Of a stretch of 36,587 nt of DNA, positions 18,138 through 31,237 are shown in pieces. The position numbers were made by a program, and so were the translations under genes. Source of the DNA: Flavonifractor plautii ATCC 29863. Its GTDB lineage: Bacteria; Bacillota; Clostridia; Oscillospirales; Oscillospiraceae. The stretch spans positions 1 to 36,587 of the forward strand of contig NZ_JH417677.1 in NCBI RefSeq assembly GCF_000239295.1, given 5' to 3'. Under the pieces are notes generated by a model. It searched no databases. It worked only from the letters and a program-made list of their open reading frames with translations, and was not told the origin of the DNA. Numbering within the stretch: position 1 is the stretch's first letter; every line of letters starts with the position of its first letter.

Positions 18138-18166
18138 TGCGGTTTTGCGCAAAATCAACTATAGTT
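18138..18166 (+). promoter_or_regulatory. promoter of cas3
   Basis: TTGCGG (18138-18143) and TATAGT (18161-18166) are 17 bases apart. The cas3 mRNA would have a leader of about 85 bases. This promoter is divergent to that of the DivIVA-like gene. Confidence 0.65.
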
Positions 18167-18258
18167 ATAGTTGGCATTACGGCAAAATGTCCGGTCTATC
18201 GGGCTTATCCGGCGGTATTCTACGTTCAGAAACATTTGAGAACGGAGGTAGTTTTCCC

Positions 18259-20388
18259 ATGACCTATCTGGCCCACATTGCCGGCGACGGCCGGAAACAG
18301 ACGGCGGCGGAGCACCTCAACGGGACGGCGGAGCGTTGCGCCCTCTTTGCCGCTCCCTTTGGCGCGGAGGAGCTGGGTCGGCTGGCCGGCCTGAGCCACG
18401 ACCTCGGAAAATACTCCATGGAATTTCAGCGCCGCCTTGCCGGCGGCCCCAAGGTGGATCACGCCACCGCCGGCGCCTTTGCCTGCTGGCGTATGGGGCA
18501 GCCTCTGGCTGCCTTTGCGGCGGCGGGGCACCACGGCGGCCTCCCGGACGGAGGCACTCAGGGGGATTCCCCGGATGCCGGAACCTTTTGGGGACGGATG
18601 AAGCGCGCGGAACGGGGCATGCTGCCCGACTGCTCCCCCTGGACAGAAGAGATCGCCCTCCCCTCCCCCGCTCCTCCCCCCTGCGGCGCGGAGCCGCTGT
18701 CCCTGATGTTCTTTACCCGGATGCTGTTTTCCTGTCTGACGGACGCGGATTTCCTGGACACCGAGGCCTTTATGGACGGCTCCCCCCGGCCGGAGCACCC
18801 CGCTCCTCTGGATGACCTTTGGGAGCGGCTCCAGCGCCATATCTCCGGCTGGTTTCCCCCTCAGGGAGAGCTGAACTCCCGCCGCTGCGCCGTTCTGGAG
18901 CAGTGTATCCGGATGGGCAAAACCCAGCCCCCCGGCCTGTTTACCCTCACCGTCCCCACCGGGGGCGGAAAGACGGTGGCCTCTCTGGCCTTCGCCCTGG
19001 CCCAGGCTAGGGCCAGGGGACTGCGGCGGATCATCTATGTGATCCCCTACACCTCCATCATCGAGCAGACCGCCCAGGAGTTCCGAACCATCCTGGGGGC
19101 GGAGAACGTGCTGGAGCACCACTCCAACGCCGCCTATGAAATCGACGCCGAGGCCACTCCAAAAACGGTCCGCCTGGCCCAGGCCGCGGAGAACTGGGAC
19201 ATGCCCGTGGTGGTGACCACGGCGGTGCAGTTCTTTGAATCCCTCTATGCCAACCGCCCCTCCCAGTGCCGCAAGCTCCACAACCTGGCCGGAAGCGTCA
19301 TTCTCTTCGACGAGGCCCAGCTGCTCCCCCTCCCCTGCCTGCGGCCCTGCGTCCACGCCATCGCCCAGCTCGTTCAGCATTACGGCGCTTCCGCCGTCCT
19401 CTGTACCGCCACCCAGCCCGCACTGGGGCCGCTCTTTGCAGAGTTCCTGCCCGGCCGTCCGGCGGTGGAGCTCTGTCCGCCGGAGCTGTGTCCCCCGGAA
19501 CCCTTCCGCCGGGTGTGCTTCCGCCAGGCGGGCCGGCTGGACTGGGACACACTGTCCGGACAGCTCCAGCAGCACGAGCAGGTGCTCTGCGTTGTCAACA
19601 GCCGCAAGAGCGCCCAGGAGATCTTTACGCGGCTCTCCGGCGAGGGGAACTTTCACCTCTCTACCCTCATGTATCCCGCCCACCGGCGCGCCAAGCTGGA
19701 GGAGATCCGCCGCCGGCTCAAGGAGGGGCTCCCCTGCCGGGTGATCTCCACCTCCCTGATCGAGGCCGGGGTGGATGTAGACTTTCCAGCCGTGTTCCGG
19801 GAAGAGGCGGGCCTGGACTCCATCCTCCAGGCCGCCGGCCGGTGCAACCGGGAGGGGAAGCGCCCCGTCTCGGAGAGCATCGTCACCCTTTTCCGGGGGG
19901 AAGCCGTCCCGCCGCCTCTGTTTCAGACCGCTATCGGCGCGGGCCGCATGGTGCTGGAGCAGTATGACGACATCGCCTCTCAGGAGGCGATCCAGGCCTA
20001 CTTCCATACGCTCCTGGAGCTGAAGGGGGCGGAAGCGCAGGACATATATGGTATTCTGCCCAAGATTCGCACGGAGCTGTTCCCCTTCCAGTCCGTGGCG
20101 GAGCGCTTCCACATGATCGACAGCCCCACCCGGACGGTCTACATCCCATTGGGCGCGGGCGCGGAGCTGGTCGGACGGCTTCGGGCCGGAGAGCGGAGCC
20201 GGACGCTGTTCCGCCAGCTCGGCCAATACGGCGTATCTATCTACGAAGAGCACTTCGCCGCCCTGGATCAGGCCGGGGATCTGGAGCGGCTGGAGGATGG
20301 CTCCGCTATCCTTGCCACCCTGTCCCTCTATTCAGAGGAAACCGGGCTGTCCCTGGAGGCGGACTGTGGGAAAGCCTTCTTTGTCTAA
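18259..20388 (+). CDS. cas3: CRISPR-associated helicase/nuclease Cas3 (type I-C)
   Basis: The 709-residue protein combines an N-terminal HD nuclease with an SF2 helicase; Cascade recruits it to degrade target DNA. HD residues visible are H19, the H47-D48 pair in LSHDLGKY, H68 in DHATAG and H91-H92 in AAGHHGG. Helicase motifs are TVPTGGGKT (about 230-240), FDEAQ near 351, CTATQPAL, STSLIEAGVDVDFP and QAAGRCNREGK near 523. The ATG at 18259 follows acggaggt; the frame is open upstream to 18145, but the protein start there is not conserved in appearance. A strong hairpin follows the stop and separates cas3 from the rest of the operon. Confidence 0.96.
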   Translation: MTYLAHIAGDGRKQTAAEHLNGTAERCALFAAPFGAEELGRLAGLSHDLGKYSMEFQRRLAGGPKVDHATAGAFACWRMGQPLAAFAAAGHHGGLPDGGTQGDSPDAGTFWGRMKRAERGMLPDCSPWTEEIALPSPAPPPCGAEPLSLMFFTRMLFSCLTDADFLDTEAFMDGSPRPEHPAPLDDLWERLQRHISGWFPPQGELNSRRCAVLEQCIRMGKTQPPGLFTLTVPTGGGKTVASLAFALAQARARGLRRIIYVIPYTSIIEQTAQEFRTILGAENVLEHHSNAAYEIDAEATPKTVRLAQAAENWDMPVVVTTAVQFFESLYANRPSQCRKLHNLAGSVILFDEAQLLPLPCLRPCVHAIAQLVQHYGASAVLCTATQPALGPLFAEFLPGRPAVELCPPELCPPEPFRRVCFRQAGRLDWDTLSGQLQQHEQVLCVVNSRKSAQEIFTRLSGEGNFHLSTLMYPAHRRAKLEEIRRRLKEGLPCRVISTSLIEAGVDVDFPAVFREEAGLDSILQAAGRCNREGKRPVSESIVTLFRGEAVPPPLFQTAIGAGRMVLEQYDDIASQEAIQAYFHTLLELKGAEAQDIYGILPKIRTELFPFQSVAERFHMIDSPTRTVYIPLGAGAELVGRLRAGERSRTLFRQLGQYGVSIYEEHFAALDQAGDLERLEDGSAILATLSLYSEETGLSLEADCGKAFFV

Positions 20389-20392
20389 ACAG

Positions 20393-20428
20393 CAGGGGAG
20401 CGGAGACGCTTCCGTCTCCGCTCCCCTG
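20393..20428. terminator. strong hairpin after cas3 and after the minus-strand crRNA-like RNA
   Basis: A perfect 16-base stem (CAGGGGAGCGGAGACG, 20393-20408; complement 20413-20428) with a 4-base loop starts 5 bases after the cas3 stop. Only short T-runs lie on either side, so it may end both cas3 transcription and the minus-strand RNA, or protect their 3' ends. Confidence 0.75.
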
Positions 20429-20480
20429 TGCCTCCTAATTAATATACATTTCTATATTTCAATCCACGCATGTTGCGACA
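20429..20480 (-). ncRNA. candidate crRNA-like regulatory RNA (shortened repeat plus pseudo-spacer)
   Basis: Reading the minus strand, 20479-20456 is a shortened CRISPR repeat: GTCGCA, then ACA in place of the central 12 bases, then TGCGTGGATTGAAAT. These flanks equal the first 6 and last 15 bases of the array repeat at 26199. The hairpin is reduced to CGCA-ACA-TGCG, but the 11-base 3' handle (TGGATTGAAAT) is intact, so Cas5-type processing remains plausible. The following 27 bases (20455-20429) act as a pseudo-spacer starting ATAGAAATGTATATTAA, and the hairpin at 20428-20393 would close the RNA. A minus-strand extended -10 box places the start of transcription at the first base of the repeat. 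The guide matches a TTC-flanked site upstream of cas5 (see 20512-20548). No second repeat is present. Confidence 0.8.
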
Positions 20481-20486
20481 GAAAAT

Positions 20487-20495
20487 ATTATATCA
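20487..20495 (-). promoter_or_regulatory. extended -10 promoter of the crRNA-like RNA
   Basis: On the minus strand the sequence TGATATAAT (20495-20487) is a perfect extended -10 element. The -35 position at 17-base spacing is weak (TGAATT, 20515-20510). Transcription would start at about 20480, right at the first base of the shortened repeat. Confidence 0.7.
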
Positions 20496-20511
20496 CATGT
20501 TTCAACAAAAA

Positions 20512-20548
20512 TTCATAGATATGTATTTTAAAGAGTTTGACGGATGAC
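20512..20548 (+). promoter_or_regulatory. putative Cascade operator (PAM plus partial protospacer) upstream of cas5
   Basis: TTC at 20512-20514 is the type I-C PAM. From 20515 the plus strand reads ATAGATATGTATTTTAA, against ATAGAAATGTATATTAA in the pseudo-spacer. Matches occur at positions 1-5, 7-12, 14-17, 20 and 21, that is 17 of 21, and one mismatch is at position 6, which is flipped out in type I guides. Beyond 21 the match is lost. A full-length Cascade footprint would cover the -35 box at 20537-20542. A partial match of this kind would be expected to allow binding but not cleavage. Confidence 0.75.
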
Positions 20549-20565
20549 TAACTCTGATGTATAAT
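20537..20565 (+). promoter_or_regulatory. strong promoter of the cas5-cas8c-cas7-cas4-cas1-cas2 operon
   Basis: TTGACG (20537-20542) and TATAAT (20560-20565) are 17 bases apart, which is nearly consensus. Transcription would start near 20572, about 126 bases before cas5. Its -35 box lies inside the putative Cascade operator. Confidence 0.88.
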
Positions 20566-20577
20566 ATAGTCGTCTAA

Positions 20578-20682
20578 ATGAATAGACGCAGGATGGAACG
20601 CCGGGCAGACGTGAGGTCTCATTCACTCTCTACTCCGTCTGCCGGTGCTTCCCCTGTCCAAACAATATATTATGTATTATGA
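20578..20682 (+). CDS. possible 34-codon small ORF in the cas5 leader
   Basis: The frame begins ATG AAT AGA CGC AGG (MNRRRMERRADV) only about 6 bases after the predicted transcription start, so it has no room for a ribosome site. It ends TGA just before the cas5 ribosome site. The start codon lies in the loop of a small hairpin (CGTCT/AGACG, 20571-20588). A longer stem follows (20601-20611 with 20636-20645). The codons AGA and AGG are uncommon in the neighbouring genes. It may be an untranslated leader with a chance frame, or a small toxin-like or leader element. The evidence for translation is weak. Confidence 0.3.
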   Translation: MNRRRMERRADVRSHSLSTPSAGASPVQTIYYVL

Positions 20683-20697
20683 AAGGAGTGAACGCCT

Positions 20698-21360
20698 ATG
20701 TCCATTCAGCTGGAGGTCTGGGGGGATTATGCCCTCTTTACCCGCCCGGAGATGAAAGTAGAACGGGTGAGCTACGATATCATGACCCCCTCCGCCGCCC
20801 GGGGGCTGGTGGAGGCCATCTACTGGCATCCTGGGCTGAGGTGGATCATCGACCGCATCCATGTGTGCGCTCCCATCCGCTTCACCAACCTGCGGCGCAA
20901 CGAGGTCAAGTCCACTCTCTCCGCCCGCTCGGCCCGGACGGTGATGGAGCGGGGCAAGGGAGAGCTGTATCTGTGCACATCCGACGACATTCAGCAGCGG
21001 GCCGCCCTGCTGCTGCGGGATGTGCGGTATGTCATTGAGGCCCATTTTGACATGACCAGTCAGGCCGCCCCCGGAGATAATCCGGGCAAGTTTCAGGACA
21101 TTGTCAAGCGCCGCATCAAAAAGGGGCAGTTCTACCACCAGCCCTGCTTTGGCTGCCGTGAGTTTCCCGCCCATTTCCACTGGTGTGAGGAGCTACCCCC
21201 CTGCCCGAAGGAGCTGCTGGGAGAGCGCGATCTGGGCTGGATCCTGTGGGATATGGACTATACAAATCCGGAGGATATCCGCCCCCTGTTCTTCCGCGGC
21301 ACCCTGCGGGACGGGGTGCTGGAGGTGCCCGCCCGGGACAGCGGGGAGGTGCGGGGATGA
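20698..21360 (+). CDS. cas5c: type I-C Cas5 (Cas5c/Cas5d), pre-crRNA endonuclease
   Basis: Type I-C lacks Cas6, and its Cas5 cuts the repeat RNA and stays on the 5' handle in Cascade. The 220-residue protein shows the family pattern: VWGDYALFTRPEMKVERVSYDIMTPSAARGLVEAIYWHP at the N-terminus (RAMP fold), NEVKSTLS in the middle, and GKFQDIVKRRIKKGQFYHQP followed by CFGCREFPA in the second half. The ribosome site (aaaggag) is good. The ATG of cas8c overlaps the stop codon (ATGA). Confidence 0.95.
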   Translation: MSIQLEVWGDYALFTRPEMKVERVSYDIMTPSAARGLVEAIYWHPGLRWIIDRIHVCAPIRFTNLRRNEVKSTLSARSARTVMERGKGELYLCTSDDIQQRAALLLRDVRYVIEAHFDMTSQAAPGDNPGKFQDIVKRRIKKGQFYHQPCFGCREFPAHFHWCEELPPCPKELLGERDLGWILWDMDYTNPEDIRPLFFRGTLRDGVLEVPARDSGEVRG

Positions 21361-23153
21361 TTTTGCAGGCGTTGACCCAGTATTACGAAACTCTGGTGCA
21401 GGCAGGCGTGCTTGCCGGCCCCGGCTGGGGGCCGGTCAAGGCCTCCTATGCACTCTCTATCGCCGCAGACGGGACGCTGGAGCAGGTTACGTCCATTCAG
21501 ACGGAGCAGCTCCGAGGGAAAAAGACTGTGCTCGCCCCCCAGGTGCTCACGCTCCCTGCTCCGGTCAAACGCACAGTAGGGATCGCCGCCAATTTTCTGT
21601 GCGATAACTCCGGCTACATTTTGGGCGCAGACAATAAGGGCAACCCTCAGCGCTCCCTTGCGTGCTTTGCCGCCTGCAAGGCGCTTCATACCTCTGTTTT
21701 GGGGGGTGTCGCTTCCCCCTCCGCTCAGGCCCTGCTGGCCTTCTTCCGCACCTGGATCCCGGAGTATACACTGGAGCATCCCGCTCTGGCAGAGTATCGG
21801 GAGGACATACTGTCCGGGGCCAATCTGCTCTTCCGTTATAATGGAAGCTATATCCACGAAGATCCCGAGATTCGGCGTGCCTGGGAGCGCCGCTATCGCG
21901 CCGATACCGACAGCCCAAGAGGTATCTGCCTCGTCACCGGCGAGGAAGGGCCGGTGGAGTCCGTTCACCCGGCCATCAAGAATGTGTCCGGCGCCCAATC
22001 CAGCGGCGCAGCTCTGGTCTCTTTCAACGCACCGGCGTTCTGTTCCTACGGCAAGGAGCAGAACCTCAACGCCCCTACCGGCAAATACGCCGCCTTCGCC
22101 TACACGGCCGCCCTTAATTACCTGCTGGCCGACCGGGAGCACGTCTACCGGCTCGGGGACGCCACCGTCGTCTGCTGGGCCAGAGGCGGCGGCGACGCCT
22201 ACCAGGCCTTTTTCGGCGGAGCTCTGCTGGGGGCGCCGACGCCGTACAGCGCCGCGGATCTCCGCGGCATGACCGCACAGCTGTGCCAGGGAATCCCCGT
22301 GGACTTTCAGGAGGACAAGCTCGACCCCAACATGGATTTCTATATCCTAGGCCTCTCCCCCAACGCCGCCCGGCTGTCAGTGCGCTTTTTCCTCCACAAT
22401 ACCTTCCAGGGATTCCTGGATCACATCCAGGCCCACTATGACCGCCTGGAGATCGCTCAGTCCAATGATAATAAATTTGACAACATTCCTCTTTGGCGCC
22501 TTCTGTATGCCACTGTCCGAAGTCAAACCAAATATGAACCAAGTTCATATAAGGAAGCAAAACAAAATTTGGAAAAATATCTCCCTCCAGAACTATCCGG
22601 TGAGATCCTCCGCTCTATTCTCATGAATACCCGTTACCCTGCTACATTACTGAATGGTATTACTTTGCGTATCCGGGCAGAACACGAAATTACACGAAGC
22701 CGAGCTGCCGCCATCAAAGCATGTCTCTTGCAAAATTATCGTTGTCTTCCAATTTATTCCACACTAAGGGAGGTATTGACCGTGGAACTAAATGATTCTT
22801 GCAATTATCAGCCCTATGTTTTAGGCCGGTTATTTGCGGTAATGGAACAAATACAGCTCGCCTCCGCAGATTGGAAATTGAACCGCACAATCAAAGATAG
22901 CTATTTTACCTCCGCCGCAACAACTCCCAAAAATATCTACGCAAAATTGTTTCCACTAAGCGAATATCACATGAAAAAGCTCCTGCGTGATAAGCCCGGC
23001 CTGGCAAATATACTGGGGAAGGAAAAAGGCTCTCTGATTGGCAAATTGACTGCTCCTATTCCTCCGCGTTTTATGCCAGAAGAAACCGACTGTTTCTATA
23101 TCGGATATTATCATCAGAGCAATCAGAAAAAGGAGGAAAAAGAGCATGTCTGA
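21357..23153 (+). CDS. cas8c: type I-C Cascade large subunit Cas8c (Csd1)
   Basis: The 598-residue protein starts MILQALTQYYETLVQAG, typical of Csd1, and has the family segments VSFNAPAFCSYGKEQNLNAPTGKYAAFAYTAALNYLL (about 220-260), FYILGLSPNAARLSVRFFL (about 330-348) and ERTRYPATLLNG-like NTRYPATLLNG near 424. Cas8c recognises the PAM and contacts the target. The start overlaps the cas5 stop by 4 bases, and the upstream open frame to 21246 lies inside cas5. Base composition changes sharply near 22450: G+C is 43 of 60 at 22201-22260 but 23 of 60 at 22501-22560, and the low value lasts to the end of the gene. Confidence 0.95.
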   Translation: MILQALTQYYETLVQAGVLAGPGWGPVKASYALSIAADGTLEQVTSIQTEQLRGKKTVLAPQVLTLPAPVKRTVGIAANFLCDNSGYILGADNKGNPQRSLACFAACKALHTSVLGGVASPSAQALLAFFRTWIPEYTLEHPALAEYREDILSGANLLFRYNGSYIHEDPEIRRAWERRYRADTDSPRGICLVTGEEGPVESVHPAIKNVSGAQSSGAALVSFNAPAFCSYGKEQNLNAPTGKYAAFAYTAALNYLLADREHVYRLGDATVVCWARGGGDAYQAFFGGALLGAPTPYSAADLRGMTAQLCQGIPVDFQEDKLDPNMDFYILGLSPNAARLSVRFFLHNTFQGFLDHIQAHYDRLEIAQSNDNKFDNIPLWRLLYATVRSQTKYEPSSYKEAKQNLEKYLPPELSGEILRSILMNTRYPATLLNGITLRIRAEHEITRSRAAAIKACLLQNYRCLPIYSTLREVLTVELNDSCNYQPYVLGRLFAVMEQIQLASADWKLNRTIKDSYFTSAATTPKNIYAKLFPLSEYHMKKLLRDKPGLANILGKEKGSLIGKLTAPIPPRFMPEETDCFYIGYYHQSNQKKEEKEHV

Positions 23154-24042
23154 TCCTATCAAAAACCGCTATGAATTTGTCATCCTGTTCGACGTGGAGA
23201 ACGGCAATCCCAACGGGGATCCGGACGCGGGCAATATGCCCCGGGTGGATCCGGAGACTGGCCTGGGCATTGTCACCGACGTGTGCCTGAAGCGGAAGAT
23301 CCGCAACTATGTGGAGACGGTGAAGGAGGACGCCACCGGCTACCGCATCTATGTCAAGGACGGCGTGCCTCTTAACCGCAGCGACGCCGAGGCCTACGCC
23401 GCCCTGGACGTGGACGAAAAGACCATCAAGGAAAAGAAAAAGGCCGATCCCGACCTGGATCGGAAAGTCCGGGACTGGATGTGCGCCAACTTCTACGATG
23501 TGCGCACCTTTGGCGCGGTGATGACCACCTTTGTGAAGGCCGCCCTCAACTGCGGCCAGGTGCGGGGGCCGGTGCAGTTGGGCTTTGCCCGCAGCGTGGA
23601 ACCCGTCATTCCCCAGGAGATCACCATCACCCGTGTGGCCATCACCACCGAGGCCGACGCGGAGAAAAAGGGCACTGAGATGGGGAGAAAGTATGTCATC
23701 CCCTATGGCCTCTATCGCTGCGAGGGCTACGTCTCCGCCAACCTGGCCCGCAAGACCACCGGCTTCTCCGAGGAGGATCTGTCCCTGCTGTGGGAGGCAA
23801 TCCTCAATATGTTCGAGCACGACCACTCCGCCGCACGGGGCAAGATGGCCGTGCGGGAGCTGATTGTCTTCCAGCACGACAGCGAGCTGGGCTGCGCCCC
23901 GGCCTGGAAGCTCTTTGAAGCGGTACATGTCACCCGGAGGGATCCCGGTGATCCCGCCCCCGCCCGTTCCTATCAGGATTACTCCGTCACGGTGGACGAG
24001 GCCGCCCTCCCCGCCGGAATCACCTGCCGGCGGATGGGGTGA
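23146..24042 (+). CDS. cas7c: type I-C Cascade backbone subunit Cas7 (Csd2)
   Basis: Cas7 forms the helical backbone that holds the crRNA spacer. The 298-residue protein has the Csd2 start NRYEFVILFDVENGNPNGDPDAGNMPRVDPETGLG, LKRKIRNYV, and FYDVRTFGAVM near 118-128, followed by the RGPVQLGFARSVEPV and EMGRKYVIPYGLYRCEGYVS segments. It overlaps the end of cas8c by 8 bases, has a strong ribosome site (aaaggagg), and returns to the high GC content of the locus. Confidence 0.96.
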   Translation: MSDPIKNRYEFVILFDVENGNPNGDPDAGNMPRVDPETGLGIVTDVCLKRKIRNYVETVKEDATGYRIYVKDGVPLNRSDAEAYAALDVDEKTIKEKKKADPDLDRKVRDWMCANFYDVRTFGAVMTTFVKAALNCGQVRGPVQLGFARSVEPVIPQEITITRVAITTEADAEKKGTEMGRKYVIPYGLYRCEGYVSANLARKTTGFSEEDLSLLWEAILNMFEHDHSAARGKMAVRELIVFQHDSELGCAPAWKLFEAVHVTRRDPGDPAPARSYQDYSVTVDEAALPAGITCRRMG

Positions 24043-24701
24043 ACTTCCGTGAGGAGGAGTTTCTCCCCCTCTCCGGCCTTCAGCACTTTGCCTTCTGCCG
24101 CCGCCAGTGGGCGCTGATCCATCTGGAACAGCAGTGGCAGGAAAATCTGCGCACCATAGAGGGCCAGCTCTTCCATGAGCGTGCCCACGACGCCTCCCTT
24201 CGGGAGCGGCGGGGCGATACTCTGGTTCTCCGCAGTCTGGCGGTGGCCTCCCCTACCCTGGGACTGTCCGGCCAGTGCGACGTGGTCGAATTTCGCGCCG
24301 CGCCAGAGGGCGTCCCCCTCGCGGGCGAGGAGGGCCGCTGGCTGCCCTTTCCCGTGGAGTACAAGCGCGGCCGGCCAAAGCCTCACCAGGCGGACGAGCT
24401 TCAGCTGTGCGCCCAGGCCATGTGTCTGGAGGAAATGCTGTGCTGCCCCGTCCCGGAAGGCGCACTCTACTACGGCGAAACCCGCCGGCGCACTCCGGTG
24501 CGCTTCTCTCCAGAGCTGCGCCGTCAGGTTCAGTCCGCCGCAGAGGAGATGCATCAGCTCTTCCGGCGGGGCCACACCCCCAAAGCCAGGCCGGGCAAGT
24601 TCTGCGGCGCCTGTTCTCTGAAGGAGCTGTGCCTGCCGCAGCTGATCCGGCGGGAGTCCGTATCCGATTATCTGAACCGGGCCATGGAGGAAACGCCATG
24701 A
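24039..24701 (+). CDS. cas4: CRISPR-associated nuclease Cas4
   Basis: Cas4 trims prespacers and sets their PAM and orientation with Cas1-Cas2. The 220-residue protein has a RecB-like core (CDVVEF, VEYKRGRPK, QLCAQAMCLEE). The 4Fe-4S ligands are C20 near the start and C189, C192 and C198 (FCGACSLKELC) at the end. It starts with GTG overlapping the cas7 stop by 4 bases, which suggests coupled translation. Confidence 0.95.
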   Translation: MNFREEEFLPLSGLQHFAFCRRQWALIHLEQQWQENLRTIEGQLFHERAHDASLRERRGDTLVLRSLAVASPTLGLSGQCDVVEFRAAPEGVPLAGEEGRWLPFPVEYKRGRPKPHQADELQLCAQAMCLEEMLCCPVPEGALYYGETRRRTPVRFSPELRRQVQSAAEEMHQLFRRGHTPKARPGKFCGACSLKELCLPQLIRRESVSDYLNRAMEETP

Positions 24702-25729
24702 GACAACTGTTGAACACCCTCTTCGTGACCTCGGAGGACATCTATCTGTCCCTGGACGGCGAAAATGTGGTCGCCAGCCGGGAACATCAGGAGGCCGCCC
24801 GCTACCCGCTCCATACCTTGAGCGGCATTGTCTCCTTCTCCTACCCCGGGGCCTCTCCCGCCCTGATGGGCGCCTGCGCCGAGCGCGGTATCTCTCTGGC
24901 CTTCTGCACGCCGCGCGGGCGGTTTCTGGCCCGGATCGCCGGGAGTACCTCGGGAAACGTCCTGCTCCGGCGTGCCCAGTACCGCACGGCGGACGAGCTC
25001 TCCGCCAGTTGCCGCATTGCCCGCAGTATGATCTTCGGCAAGGTCTATAACGCCCGCTGGAGCATCGAGCGCACCCGAAGAGATCACGGGCTCCGGCTGG
25101 ATTCCGCCAGCCTGACAGCCTCCGCGTCTCATCTGAAAGAGCTTCTCCCCCAAATCGCCGCGGCCGCCTCTCTCGAGCATCTGCGCGGCCTGGAGGGCGC
25201 CGGAGCAACCCTCTATTTCGGGCAGTTAGACCAGCTGATCTTGGGTGAAAAGCCCCTCTTTTCCTACCAAAGCCGCAGCCGCCGTCCGCCGCGGGATCCT
25301 GTCAACGCCCTGCTCTCCTTTGTCTACAGTCTGCTGTCGCACGACTGCGCCTCCGCACTGGAGAGCGTGGGGCTGGATTCCTACGTGGGCTTTCTCCACC
25401 GGGATCGCCCCGGCCGGGCCTCTCTGGCCCTGGATCTGATGGAGGAGCTGCGCCCCTGTATGGCCGACCGGTTCGTTTTAACCCTGATAAACAACCGAAT
25501 GGTGGGGCGGCAGGACTTTGATTTTCTGGAGAATGGGGCGGTCTTTTTGAGCGACTCCGGCCGCAGATCGGTTCTGAAGCGCTGGCAGGAGCGGAAAAAG
25601 GAGCCTCTGACTCACCCCTATCTCCAGGAAAAGCTCTCTTGGGGACTGGTTCCCTATCTCCAGGCGCTGCTTCTGGCCCGCTGCCTCCGCGGCGATCTGG
25701 ACGCCTATCCGCCCTTTTTGTGGAAGTGA
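24698..25729 (+). CDS. cas1: CRISPR integrase Cas1
   Basis: Cas1 with Cas2 inserts new spacers at the leader end of the array. The 343-residue protein matches the type I-C subtype, starting MRQLLNTLFVTSEDIYLSLDG. Metal ligands visible are E166 (LEGAGATLYFG), H234 (GFLHRDRPG) and D246/E249 (LALDLMEELRP). The ATG overlaps the cas4 stop (ATGA); the frame is open far upstream inside cas4, but this is only a shadow. Confidence 0.96.
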   Translation: MRQLLNTLFVTSEDIYLSLDGENVVASREHQEAARYPLHTLSGIVSFSYPGASPALMGACAERGISLAFCTPRGRFLARIAGSTSGNVLLRRAQYRTADELSASCRIARSMIFGKVYNARWSIERTRRDHGLRLDSASLTASASHLKELLPQIAAAASLEHLRGLEGAGATLYFGQLDQLILGEKPLFSYQSRSRRPPRDPVNALLSFVYSLLSHDCASALESVGLDSYVGFLHRDRPGRASLALDLMEELRPCMADRFVLTLINNRMVGRQDFDFLENGAVFLSDSGRRSVLKRWQERKKEPLTHPYLQEKLSWGLVPYLQALLLARCLRGDLDAYPPFLWK

Positions 25730-25736
25730 GGCCATT

Positions 25737-26027
25737 ATGCTGGTTTTGATTACCTACGATGTCAATACGGCGGATGCCGCCGGGCGCAAACGCCTGCGGC
25801 AGATCGCCAGGCAGTGCGTCAACTACGGCCAGCGGGTTCAGAACTCCGTCTTTGAGTGTAAGCTGGATCCAGCCCAGTACAAGCTGCTTCAAGCCAAGCT
25901 GTGCGCAATCATGGACCCCGAACGGGACAGTCTCCGCTTTTATTCCCTGGGAAATCGCTATGAGCAGAAGATCGAGCACTTTGGCTGTAAGCAGACCTAC
26001 CTTCCAGACGAACCTTTGATTTTGTAG
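25737..26027 (+). CDS. cas2: CRISPR adaptation protein Cas2
   Basis: The 96-residue protein has the ferredoxin fold start MLVLITYDVNTAD with the conserved Asp at residue 8, then GRKRLRQIARQCVNYGQRVQNSVFECKLD and SLRFYSLGNRY. It bridges two Cas1 dimers in the integrase. It lies 7 bases after cas1 and is the last cas gene before the leader and array. Confidence 0.96.
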   Translation: MLVLITYDVNTADAAGRKRLRQIARQCVNYGQRVQNSVFECKLDPAQYKLLQAKLCAIMDPERDSLRFYSLGNRYEQKIEHFGCKQTYLPDEPLIL

Positions 26028-26198: not shown

Positions 26199-26639
26199 GT
26201 CGCACCCCTCGCGGGGTGCGTGGATTGAAATGTGGCGCTGGCGGACCGGAAGTAAGGAGGAGCAAGTCGCACCCCTCGCGGGGTGCGTGGATTGAAATCA
26301 GTGGTTGTGCTGTACCACCCGGTCAATGGAGGTCGCACCCCTCGCGGGGTGCGTGGATTGAAATGAGAACCGGGCGGCCTTCCCGGAGGAGGGCGAGGAC
26401 GGTCGCACCCCTCGCGGGGTGCGTGGATTGAAATACCTGGGATATGGCCCAGCGCGTCAAGCCGCTGCGTCGCACCCCTCGCGGGGTGCGTGGATTGAAA
26501 TCGGAACGCACGGAAAAGGCTACGGGTTGCCTCCAGTCGCACCCCTCGCGGGGTGCGTGGATTGAAATAGTGAGAAATACGACATCACCAAGCATCCCCG
26601 GTATAAGTCGCACCCCTCACGGGGTGCGTGGATTAACCC
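26199..26639 (+). CRISPR. type I-C CRISPR array, 7 repeats and 6 spacers
   Basis: The 33-base repeat begins GTCGCACCCC, has the palindrome CCCCTCGCGGGG, and ends TGCGTGGATTGAAAT. Six copies are identical (26199, 26266, 26332, 26402, 26469, 26536). The seventh (26607) has one change in the loop and loses its last five bases, as usual at the leader-distal end. Spacers are 34, 33, 37, 34, 34 and 38 bases, at 26232, 26299, 26365, 26435, 26502 and 26569. No spacer matches another part of the window that I could see. Confidence 0.98.
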
Positions 26640-27685: not shown

Positions 27686-28540
27686 ATGAACGATGCGATC
27701 ATCAAAACAGAAGAGCTGCGCTTCGCCTACGCGGAGGAGGGCGCGGTCAACCCCTTTGTGCTGGACGGGGTAAGCCTGGACATCGAGGAGGGCTCCTTTG
27801 TGGCTGTGTTGGGTCACAACGGCTCCGGCAAGTCCACCCTTGCCAAGCACCTGAACGCCATCCTGCTGCCCTCCGGCGGCAAAGTCTACGTGGACGGCAT
27901 CGACACCGCCGACGAGGATAAACTGCTGGACATCCGCCGCACCGTGGGCATGGTATTCCAGAACCCGGACAACCAGATCGTTGCCAACGTGGTGGAGGAG
28001 GACGTGGCCTTCGCCCCTGAGAATCTGGGAGTGCCCCCGGCGGAGATCCGCCGGAGGGTGGACGACGCCCTCAAGGCCGTGGGTATGTACGAGTACCGGG
28101 AGCACGCCCCCCACCTGCTCTCCGGCGGACAGAAACAGCGGGTGGCCATTGCCGGTGTCATCGCTATGGCACCCCGCTGCATTGTGCTGGACGAGCCCAC
28201 CGCCATGCTGGACCCCATCGGCCGGGCGGAGGTCATGAAGACCATCCGTGAGCTCAACCGCTCCTCCGGCGTGACGGTAGTGCTCATCACCCACCATATG
28301 GACGAGGCCGCCCAGGCCGACCGGCTGGTGGTCATGGCCAAGGGCCGGGTGGTGGCCGACGGCCCCCCCCGGGAGGTCTTTCAGCGGGTGGAGGAGTTGA
28401 AGGCCGTGGGCCTCACTGTCCCCGAGACCACCGAGCTGCTGTGGCAGCTCCGGCAGGCGGGGGTGGACGTTCCTCTGGACGCACTGAGCGACGAGGAATG
28501 TGCCCAGGCGCTCTTTGATCTGCTGCAAACACGGGCGTGA
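27686..28540 (+). CDS. ecfA1: ECF transporter ATPase EcfA1
   Basis: This ATPase drives energy-coupling factor transporters that take up vitamins and other micronutrients via exchangeable S components. The 284-residue protein has Walker [10 protein letters not shown] (43-51), LSGGQKQR, Walker [14 protein letters not shown] and the switch His in [32 protein letters not shown] is typical of EcfA. The ATG at 27686 has a tgagga site; the ATG at 27671 overlaps that site. ecfA2 and ecfT follow. Confidence 0.95.
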
Positions 28541-28569: not shown

Positions 28570-29478
28570 ATGAAGCCATTGGAACCGATCATTCAGACGG
28601 AGCGCCTGAGCCACATCTATTCCGCCGGCACCCCCTTTGAACACGGGGCCCTGGTGGACGTGGACTTTACCGCCTACCGCGGGGAGTACCTGGGCATCAT
28701 CGGCCACACCGGCTCGGGCAAATCCACCCTCATCCAGCACCTCAACGGGCTGCTCAAGCCCACCTCCGGCCGCGTCCTCTTCGAGGGCCGGGATATCTGG
28801 GAGAGCAAGGAGCGCACCCGCCAGACCCGCTTCCAGGTGGGACTGGTGTTTCAGTACCCGGAGTACCAGCTCTTTGAGGAGACCATCTATAAGGATATCG
28901 CCTTCGGCCCCAAAAACATGGGGCTGGACGAGGGGGAGGTCGACCGCCGGGTGCGCGAGGCCGCCCAGTTTGTTGGGTTGCGGGAGGACATGCTGGAAAA
29001 ATCCCCCTTTGAGCTGTCCGGCGGACAAAAGCGCCGGGTCGCCATCGCCGGCGTTATTGCCATGGAGCCCTCCGTGCTCATACTGGACGAGCCCACCGCC
29101 GGCCTGGACCCAGTTGGCGTGGCGTCTATTCTGGGCAACATCCACGACTATCACACGGCCAAAAACGCCACTATCATCATCGTTTCCCACTCCATGGAGG
29201 AAGTGGCCCGGACGGTGGACCGGCTGGTGGTGATCAACGACGGCCGGATTCCCTTCTCCGGCGCGCCCCGGGAGGTCTTTGCCCACGGGGACGAGCTGGA
29301 GGCCATGGGCTTGGGCGTGCCCGCCATGACCCGGGTGTTCCACCGCCTGCGGGCCATGGGCGTGGACATCGACCCGTCGGTCTACACCACGGAGCAGGCC
29401 AGAGACGCCGTCCTGGCCAAACTGGGCCATGCCGGTCAGCAGAAGCAGTCTGCTTCCGGCGAAAGGGGGGCGGTGTAA
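28570..29478 (+). CDS. ecfA2: ECF transporter ATPase EcfA2
   Basis: The partner ATPase of EcfA1 (about 302 residues) has Walker A GHTGSGKST (46-54), FQYPEYQLFEETIYKDIAFGPKNMG, LSGGQKRR, VLILDEPTAGLDPVG and VSHSMEEVAR. The start is ambiguous. A GTG at 28537 overlaps the ecfA1 stop, the ATG at 28570 directly follows aaagga with no spacing, and a TTG at 28579 has aaagga at a proper distance. Family alignment favours the last two. Confidence 0.93.
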   Translation: MKPLEPIIQTERLSHIYSAGTPFEHGALVDVDFTAYRGEYLGIIGHTGSGKSTLIQHLNGLLKPTSGRVLFEGRDIWESKERTRQTRFQVGLVFQYPEYQLFEETIYKDIAFGPKNMGLDEGEVDRRVREAAQFVGLREDMLEKSPFELSGGQKRRVAIAGVIAMEPSVLILDEPTAGLDPVGVASILGNIHDYHTAKNATIIIVSHSMEEVARTVDRLVVINDGRIPFSGAPREVFAHGDELEAMGLGVPAMTRVFHRLRAMGVDIDPSVYTTEQARDAVLAKLGHAGQQKQSASGERGAV

Positions 29479-30319: not shown

Positions 30320-30457
30320 ATGAGAAATATTGCGCTACGCTTGATGTATGTGGGGACGGCCTATCACGGCTGGCACCGCAGCGTAAAGCAAACGTGCCGG
30401 CGGCACGTTTGTAGCGTAGGCTCCGCCGGCTGGGCCGGCGGAGAGGAACCGAAGTAG
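30320..30457 (+). pseudogene. duplicate 5' fragment of truA
   Basis: The first 56 bases (30320-30375) repeat the start of truA at 30488-30543. The last 34 of these are identical, and the first 22 differ at several places but encode nearly the same residues (MRNIALRLMYVGTAYHGW against MRNIALKLMYVGTAYHGW). After codon 18 the frame runs into the hairpin insert and ends in TAG at 30455-30457. No good ribosome site precedes it. It is a remnant or a by-product of an insertion. Confidence 0.75.
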
Positions 30458-30487: not shown

Positions 30488-31237
30488 ATGCGAAACATTG
30501 CCTTAAAACTGATGTATGTGGGGACGGCCTATCACGGCTGGCAGGTTCAAAAGAACGCCGTCACCGTGGCGGAGACGCTGGAACACTCCCTGGCCTCGGT
30601 GGTGGGCCACCCGGTCAAATGTACCGGCGCGGGCCGCACCGACGCCGGCGTGCACGCGGAGACCTATATCGCCAATTTCCGCACCTCCTCCTGTATCCCC
30701 TGCGACCGGATTCCCCTGGCGGTGAACACCCGGCTGCCCGATGACATCGTGGTGGTAAAGGCTACCGAGGTGCCCGACGGCTTCAACGCCATCGGCTCCT
30801 GCCTGAAAAAGGAGTACACTTACCGCATCTACAATTCCCACATACGGAACGCATTTTACGTCAACCGCGCCTGGTTCTATCCCAAACACCTGGACGAGAC
30901 TGTGATGCAGCGTGCGGCCTCCCACTTTGTGGGTACCCACGACTTCGCGGCTGTTCGGAGCGTCGGCACCGAAACCCGCACCACCGTGCGCACGGTTCAC
31001 TACTTTAATATCTCCCGCAGCGGAGAACTGATCGAGTGCCGGGTGTGCGCCGACGGCTTTCTCTACAACATGGTGCGCGCCATGGTGGGCACTTGTGTCT
31101 ACGCCGCCGACGGCAAATTCTCCCCCGATGACGTGCCCGCCATTCTGGAAGGCCGCAACCGCACCGCCGCCGGGCCTACTGTACCCGCCGGGGGGCTCTA
31201 TATGACCAAACTGTGGTATCAGGAGGACGTCCTATAG
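30488..31237 (+). CDS. truA: tRNA pseudouridine(38-40) synthase
   Basis: TruA isomerises uridines 38-40 in the tRNA anticodon stem. The 249-residue protein has GTAYHGWQVQ at the start, the catalytic D52 in GAGRTDAGVHA, LKKEYTYRIYN near 112 and DGFLYNMVRAMVGTCVYAADGK near 190-210. Length is normal. The neighbourhood ecfA1-ecfA2-ecfT-truA is common in Firmicutes. Its own 5' end is duplicated 168 bases upstream. Confidence 0.96.
   Translation: MRNIALKLMYVGTAYHGWQVQKNAVTVAETLEHSLASVVGHPVKCTGAGRTDAGVHAETYIANFRTSSCIPCDRIPLAVNTRLPDDIVVVKATEVPDGFNAIGSCLKKEYTYRIYNSHIRNAFYVNRAWFYPKHLDETVMQRAASHFVGTHDFAAVRSVGTETRTTVRTVHYFNISRSGELIECRVCADGFLYNMVRAMVGTCVYAADGKFSPDDVPAILEGRNRTAAGPTVPAGGLYMTKLWYQEDVL

Follow-up and report, generated by a model that had tools for sequence, protein, structure and literature searches.

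A candidate crRNA-like autorepressor of the type I-C cas operon in Flavonifractor plautii and related loci

The cas locus and its solitary repeat

The window analyzed here is the whole stretch of 36,587 nucleotides from Flavonifractor plautii ATCC 29863 (contig NZ_JH417677.1). Seven proteins encoded at 18145-26024 pass the cut-offs of the Cas3, Cas5c, Cas8c, Cas7c, Cas4, Cas1c, and Cas2 models, and the curated-model matches (Cas5c, Cas8c, Cas7c, and Cas1c) identify the system as type I-C, the subtype to which an earlier sequence-only reading had assigned it. Between cas3 and cas5 we found a repeat-like element with a CRISPR handle, located outside the array but inside the cas locus (Table 1). 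This pseudo-repeat (minus strand 20479-20456, GTCGCAACATGCGTGGATTGAAAT) had been described as a shortened copy of the array repeat (GTCGCACCCCTCGCGGGGTGCGTGGATTGAAAT), and comparison of the two confirmed that it retains the initial 6 and the final 15 bases, including the 11-nt handle, with ACA in the middle.

Table 1. Features of the cas locus and of the putative creR mini-gene in the window
Feature	Position	Strand	Basis or remark
cas3	18145..20388	+	Upstream of creR; probably outside the regulated transcript
16-bp hairpin, predicted intrinsic terminator of creR	20393..20428		RNA fold
Guide positions 1-17	20439..20455	-	14/15 readable positions identical to target
5' handle TGGATTGAAAT, 11 nt	20456..20466	-	Repeat comparison; same as array repeat
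Pseudo-repeat of creR	20456..20479	-	24 nt; GTC + 4-bp mini-stem (CGCA-ACA-TGCG) + handle
Putative creR -10 box TATAAT, preceded by TGa (extended -10)	20487..20492	-	Sequence
TTC PAM of self-target	20512..20514	+	Guide-target alignment
Target protospacer positions 1-17	20515..20531	+	Guide-target alignment
Predicted promoter of cas5-cas8c-cas7-cas4-cas1-cas2, TTGACG-17-TATAAT	20537..20565	+	Promoter scan
cas5c, presumed processing nuclease	20698..21360	+	TIGR01876
cas8c	21357..23153	+	TIGR01863
cas7c	23146..24042	+	TIGR02589
cas4	24039..24701	+	Protein model match
cas1c	24701..25729	+	Protein model match
cas2	25737..26027	+	Protein model match
CRISPR array, 7 repeats, last degenerate	26199..26639	+	Repeat search

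The element has the layout of a small gene, here called creR. A TGa-TATAAT motif at 20495-20487 (minus strand) is followed after 7 nt by the pseudo-repeat, and judging from the -10 spacing the RNA would start at about 20479, the first G of the pseudo-repeat. The folded RNA contains the 4-bp stem and the 16-bp terminator hairpin, with a folding energy of z = -7.25 against shuffles that is owed mostly to the terminator, and these promoter, stem, and terminator signs would fit a transcribed and processed creR. Read from the other side, the hairpin may also end cas3 transcripts; since it sits behind cas3 as well, cas3 is probably transcribed separately from the cas5-cas2 operon. There is one repeat only, and the guide runs into the terminator hairpin with no second repeat, for which reason a canonical array or mini-array was rejected. 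An Rfam search gave only subthreshold miRNA matches, located on the hairpins.

Other repeated sequences occur in the window. The cas5 leader contains an imperfect 17-bp inverted repeat at 20595-20652 (GGAACGCCGGGCAGACG/CGTCTGCCGGTGCTTCC), and the leaders of two other loci (L180 and L183), similar in length to that of the window, do not align to it. Farther downstream, a 56-nt stretch opening with ATG is present in two copies 168 bp apart with 86% identity (30320-30375 and 30488-30543); the second begins a 249-codon ORF, and the first could be a truncated duplicate of a gene start. A 112-nt direct repeat (28117-28228 and 29013-29124, 73% identity) lies in two neighboring ORFs that are probably ordinary paralogous genes.

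A guide that matches the cas5 promoter region

The guide (ATAGAAATGTATATTAATTAG) begins at 20455 on the minus strand. As the sequence-only reading had noticed, 17 of its 21 bases are identical to the plus strand from 20515 onward, directly after a TTC, and alignment placed the mismatches at positions 6, 13, 18, and 19. When the score is restricted to the positions readable by type I Cascade (1 to 5, 7 to 11, and 13 to 17; 15 in all), the pair reaches 14/15. No array spacer of the fetched loci (925 distinct ones) attained this score in the same 513-bp region; among 20,000 shuffled window guides, 15 attained it there and none did so with a TTC PAM. The seed-plus-PAM pattern TTYATAGANATGTAT occurs a single time in the whole 3.8-Mb assembly, at the self-target.

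The near-consensus promoter that had been proposed before cas5 was recovered as the top one of three sigma-70-like sites in 20300-20800. The claim that the footprint of the target site overlaps the -35 box (20537-20542) of this promoter is true of the full 34-nt Cascade footprint, which reaches 20548 and covers the box, but not of the matched stretch (20515-20535), which ends just before it.

Recurrence in related loci

A similarity search with the intergenic DNA against 99 related genomes (its own included) gave one match elsewhere, of 26 nt (E = 8.8e-4), and a strict pattern of the shortened repeat was present in 4 of 250 family genomes, again including its own. The strict pattern undercounts because the stems diverge, and it was therefore replaced by a scan of promoter regions for the handle. 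Loci were collected by a Cas8c search (TIGR01863, E up to 0.001), with hits in 59 of 250 sampled family genomes (52 over the cut-off) and in 56 of 341 sampled class genomes (55 over the cut-off). The family sample provided 60 regions from 56 of 58 other genomes, leaving out the weak fragments of G054 and G192, and the class sample 53 regions from 52 of 53 further genomes, leaving out a weak match in G574. From 552 confirmed named loci, a list limited by similarity to the query, we added the best 80, together with 11 IMG/VR contigs, some of them distant. The resulting 205 loci (window included), minus 4 duplicates and 16 without a promoter region, left 185, which are related to each other and are not independent samples. 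Promoter regions were set without using the guide, as up to 500 nt upstream of cas3 plus the cas3-cas5 gap or, when cas3 was not found, up to 700 nt upstream of cas5. We counted a handle as solitary if it had no more than one mismatch and lacked an array neighbor, and the PAM played no part in picking target sites.

We found 66 solitary handles in 64 of the 185 loci, after excluding 19 handles with an array neighbor; the 121 loci without any may have diverged handles or truly lack the element. Most of the solitary handles (53/66) are antisense to the operon. The sequence-only reading had named as evidence against itself the case of relatives that retain the repeat but not the guide-target match. 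The outcome favors the reading, although some loci go against it (see below): the match to the own promoter region is kept at 12/15 or better by 56 of the 66 handles, compared to 133 of 1,964 swapped guides, and at 13/15 or better by 50 of 66 compared to 17 of 1,964, some of the top swapped-guide scores probably stemming from near-identical relatives. A plausible PAM flanks 53 of the 56 matches (TTC in 41, CTC in 6, TTT in 5, and TTA in 1), TTC being found at 1.4% of control sites; the other three (AGT, GAA, and TAA) may be chance matches. The family sample and the window together comprise 58 loci; a handle is present in 23 of them, always antisense, and for 20 of the 23 the target scores at least 12/15 and has a PAM among TTC, CTC, TTT, and TTA.

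The rest of the mini-gene recurs as well. Pseudo-repeat stems vary in sequence, but 47 of 50 can form one of 3 bp or longer, adjacent to the handle or no more than 2 nt away, with a mean length of 4.3 versus 2.6 in shuffles. A -10 box of at least 5/6 precedes 42 of 53 distinct CreRs (39% of shuffles), the 19-nt spacing from -10 box to handle seen in the window recurs in 14 of the 53, and 33 of 50 have a terminator-like hairpin after the guide, a count made without a shuffle control.

Ten of the 66 handles fall below 12/15. In four (L058, L071, L195, and L216) the handle is antisense and no target was found in the fetched locus; the target region of L071, homologous to that of its relative L068, is altered. 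Two more (L179 and L234) match at 10/10 seed positions after TTC, with the third segment absent. The remaining four (L160, L206, L237, and L260) have a sense-strand handle with one mismatch and are probably chance occurrences or array repeats; L160 and L206 additionally carry a good antisense CreR. The match in L063 is weak.

Some loci differ in strand, PAM, or setting. In five loci under one family label (L142, L143, L146, L147, and L148) the CreRs are on the sense strand upstream of cas3, with the handle GTGAGTTGAAAT and a CTC PAM instead of TTC. Two IMG/VR contigs filed as viral (L261 and L262) have I-C-like cas genes and a CreR-like pair (12/15 and 14/15) and may represent mobile-element-borne systems or host contamination. 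CreR-like guides of L192 (14/15) and L243 (15/15, a Gastranaerophilales MAG) stand behind near-full-length repeats with a neighboring handle, both being among the 19 excluded handles, possibly a young stage in the passage from array spacer to stand-alone CreR. In Coriobacteriales bacterium OH1046 (L234), the guide of a CreR-like element matches a TTC-flanked site upstream of cas5 at positions 1 to 12, so such elements may also occur outside Clostridia.

Pairing rule and covariation

Among 63 distinct guides, those with a target of at least 12/15 and an accepted PAM gave 50 distinct pairs. Identity is 96 to 100% at positions 1 to 5 and 7 to 11, 92 to 98% at 13 to 15, 84% at 16, and 66% at 17; it drops to 32% at position 6 and 16% at position 12, and positions 18 to 32 are at background (12 to 32%, with 24% expected from composition). 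One mismatch of the window guide falls at position 6, which the sequence-only reading had described as flipped out in type I Cascade. The profile holds when the tested positions are ignored in the choice of site (at most two off perfect elsewhere, accepted PAM, n = 30 to 46): positions 1 to 5, 7 to 11, and 13 to 16 match in 90 to 100%, position 17 in 27 of 38, position 6 in 16 of 46, and position 12 in 8 of 46. This is the 5+1+5+1+5 rule that R-loop pairing on a type I backbone predicts.

Antisense or translational regulation, in which the minus-strand RNA would pair with cas transcripts without participation of Cascade, does not account for this profile, since two pairing RNAs would not leave out positions 6 and 12, nor would they need the TTC found at 41 of 56 sites. 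The divergent orientation of creR relative to the operon would suit such regulation, as would the targets inside the predicted leader in some loci (position 1 at +27 to +30 in 5 of 37), but the window target lies upstream of the predicted start site, and we regard this kind of regulation as very improbable.

The covarying guide-target pairs that the sequence-only reading had proposed to look for in related genomes were found. From 56 pairs we formed 17 disjoint sister pairs, with L243, L179, and L234 added for this analysis only. At the read positions, 100 differences were compensated and 18 were not (16 changed on one side only and 2 on both without matching), a ratio that leans toward compensation because the 12-of-15 threshold favors matching at read positions. 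Positions 6 and 12, which are outside the score, had 1 compensated difference and 25 uncompensated (11 single and 14 changed on both sides without matching). For example, L142 and L147 share a genus label, and guide and target have both changed between them at read positions 5 and 16; a change on both sides at position 6, seen between L047 and L049, was not counted as support because that position is unread. By these comparisons, guide and target co-evolve. A decayed, functionless repeat from a lost array would look like this one, an array repeat with its center lost, but it would not retain a covarying guide-target pair, a point on which the covariation already contradicts it, nor would it keep the pattern of readable and unreadable positions, a promoter at fixed spacing, and a terminator. 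Considering all of this, decay is the least probable of the explanations weighed here and can be given hardly any credence.

Position relative to promoters and genes

A predicted promoter above the threshold is present in 37 of the 50 pairs, and in 31 of these, position 1 of the target falls within -60 to +30 relative to the predicted start. Narrow groups can be distinguished: plus-strand sites at -60 to -56 (the window, L047, L076, and L183), seven minus-strand sites at -47 to -40 with the PAM 1 to 8 nt upstream of the -35 box, and 13 minus-strand sites at +5 to +16 with the -10 box under the PAM-distal half. The PAM plus the 34-nt footprint covers a hexamer in 19 of 37, versus 18.7% for random placement, and it is only this full footprint that is enriched; in a stricter test, the 20 bp made up of the PAM plus 17 nt overlap the -35 to -10 stretch in 6 of 50, not above the 11.5% of random placement.

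The place of the element in the locus varies with the cas3-cas5 gap, as measured in 169 loci. With gaps of at least 180 nt, CreRs are within the gap in 37 of 59 loci and upstream of cas3 in none of the 59; with gaps below 180 nt, they are upstream of cas3 in 18 of 110 and within the gap in 0 of 110, the latter partly because a short gap cannot hold one. The element thus seems to travel with the promoter of the operon. Long gaps without a CreR were found in 22 of the 59 loci; looser criteria give one in L179, L192, L234, and L243.

A site at the cas5 promoter would also suit the CreA RNA of a CreTA system, which steers Cascade to repress a small toxin, here leader encoded, and so punishes the loss of Cascade. 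The RNA architecture and the PAM are the same, and the predicted leader of the window (approximately 125 nt from promoter to cas5) contains an inverted repeat. However, no mini-ORF is shared among the six leaders examined for a toxin gene under the targeted promoter: five (the window, L180, L183, L222, and L168) lack an ORF of at least five codons with a Shine-Dalgarno-like motif, and the single six-codon ORF of L186 is unshared. Furthermore, L047, with the same target geometry, has only 41 nt from the -10 box to the cas5 start. A CreTA pair is very improbable, if somewhat less so than antisense regulation or decay.

Proposed mechanism and implications

With a probability of about 0.88, we interpret the element as a CreR of type I-C, a gene dedicated to autorepression by a crRNA-like RNA. 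The autorepressor reading originally put forward gains support from the recurring, covarying guide-target pairs, and the pairing code, the PAM, the covariation, and the placement near predicted promoters are all products of sequence comparison. As far as sequence can reveal a CreR, the I-C element has its features, namely, a handle, a guide to a PAM-flanked site in the promoter region, and co-evolution of the two.

In the mechanism that we propose, Cas5c would cut the mini-repeat to generate the handle, and Cascade (Cas5c-Cas8c-Cas7) would assemble on the creR RNA and bind the TTC-flanked site, presumably without licensing Cas3 because pairing ends after approximately 17 nt. The bound complex would block RNA polymerase at the cas5-cas2 promoter, so that free Cascade would lower its own synthesis; competing crRNAs, or an anti-CRISPR removing Cascade, would raise it. 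The bound site in the window would also overlap the weak -35 region of the creR promoter, and creR may thus limit itself too. Precedents for individual steps have been reported for the type I-C Cascade of Neisseria lactamica, which without Cas3 represses transcription with a single repeat-spacer, to about the same degree as with a repeat-spacer-repeat array, uses TTC and TTT as PAMs, and gives approximately 10-fold repression from a site over the -10 box (PMC10865793).

A broader claim, to which we give even odds, is that RNA-guided autorepression is common and fast evolving in type I-C systems of Clostridia, reaches some other bacteria, follows a strict code, and keeps the R-loop short of Cas3 licensing. 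The natural code would consist of three 5-nt segments, with positions 6 and 12 unread and complementarity extending to about position 17, and selection would hold the R-loop just short of licensing. If true, this would give the system an inbuilt means of sensing free Cascade and, through it, anti-CRISPRs, and the prediction follows that Cascade anti-CRISPRs raise cas expression in these bacteria.

Self-limiting RNA-guided control of cas genes would thereby extend to a common subtype without Cas6. The roughly 50 natural guide-target pairs indicate at which guide positions readability has been conserved in evolution and how far complementarity goes where the need is presumably for binding but not cutting, making the type I-C threshold between binding and cleavage directly testable. 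For the construction of I-C tools, deleting the cas3-cas5 gap may delete a regulator.

Relation to known systems

CreR, a cas-regulating RNA, was reportedly described by Liu et al. in 2023, and a 2023 study by Shmakov is reported to deal with stand-alone repeats with regulatory guides in cas loci, traits that the present element would share. Among the titles and abstracts covered by our literature search, none reports a CreR of type I-C. RNA-guided autorepression of cas genes is in itself a known paradigm (CreR, PMC13131331), with that source reporting CreRs for I-B, I-E, and V-A and another (PMC12737573) calling them widespread across type I and V-A.

Racr RNAs, which are anti-CRISPRs, also have a solitary repeat, and an I-C example exists (RacrIC1, PMC10651486), but a Racr is described there as a phage-borne inhibitor of CRISPR-Cas with no guide to a cas promoter. 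This identity was rejected, as the window element sits between cas3 and cas5 of a host cas locus.

Similar pairing rules are described for CreA RNAs. In the haloarchaeal I-B CreA, positions 6 and 12 are free and positions 1 to 5 and 7 to 11 essential, with the same TTC PAM, and the study includes a form with one repeat and a terminator at its end; this CreA represses a toxin, however, its essential pairing is seed only (10 nt), and most have two pseudo-repeats (PMC8501985). The I-F CreA of Acinetobacter has a 20-nt guide with 17 paired positions (6, 11, and 18 unpaired) and needs positions 13 to 17, which resembles the extent of pairing found here, but its target is a toxin, its complex is Csy, and it has two pseudo-repeats (PMC10097628). 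The candidate I-C element shares with known CreRs the crRNA-like RNA, the partial complementarity to a cas promoter, and the lack of a toxin, as far as those are described in the sources above. It differs from them in its subtype, with Cas5c in place of Cas6, in its single pseudo-repeat with a predicted promoter and terminator of its own, and in a complementarity that extends to about position 17 in 50 natural pairs.
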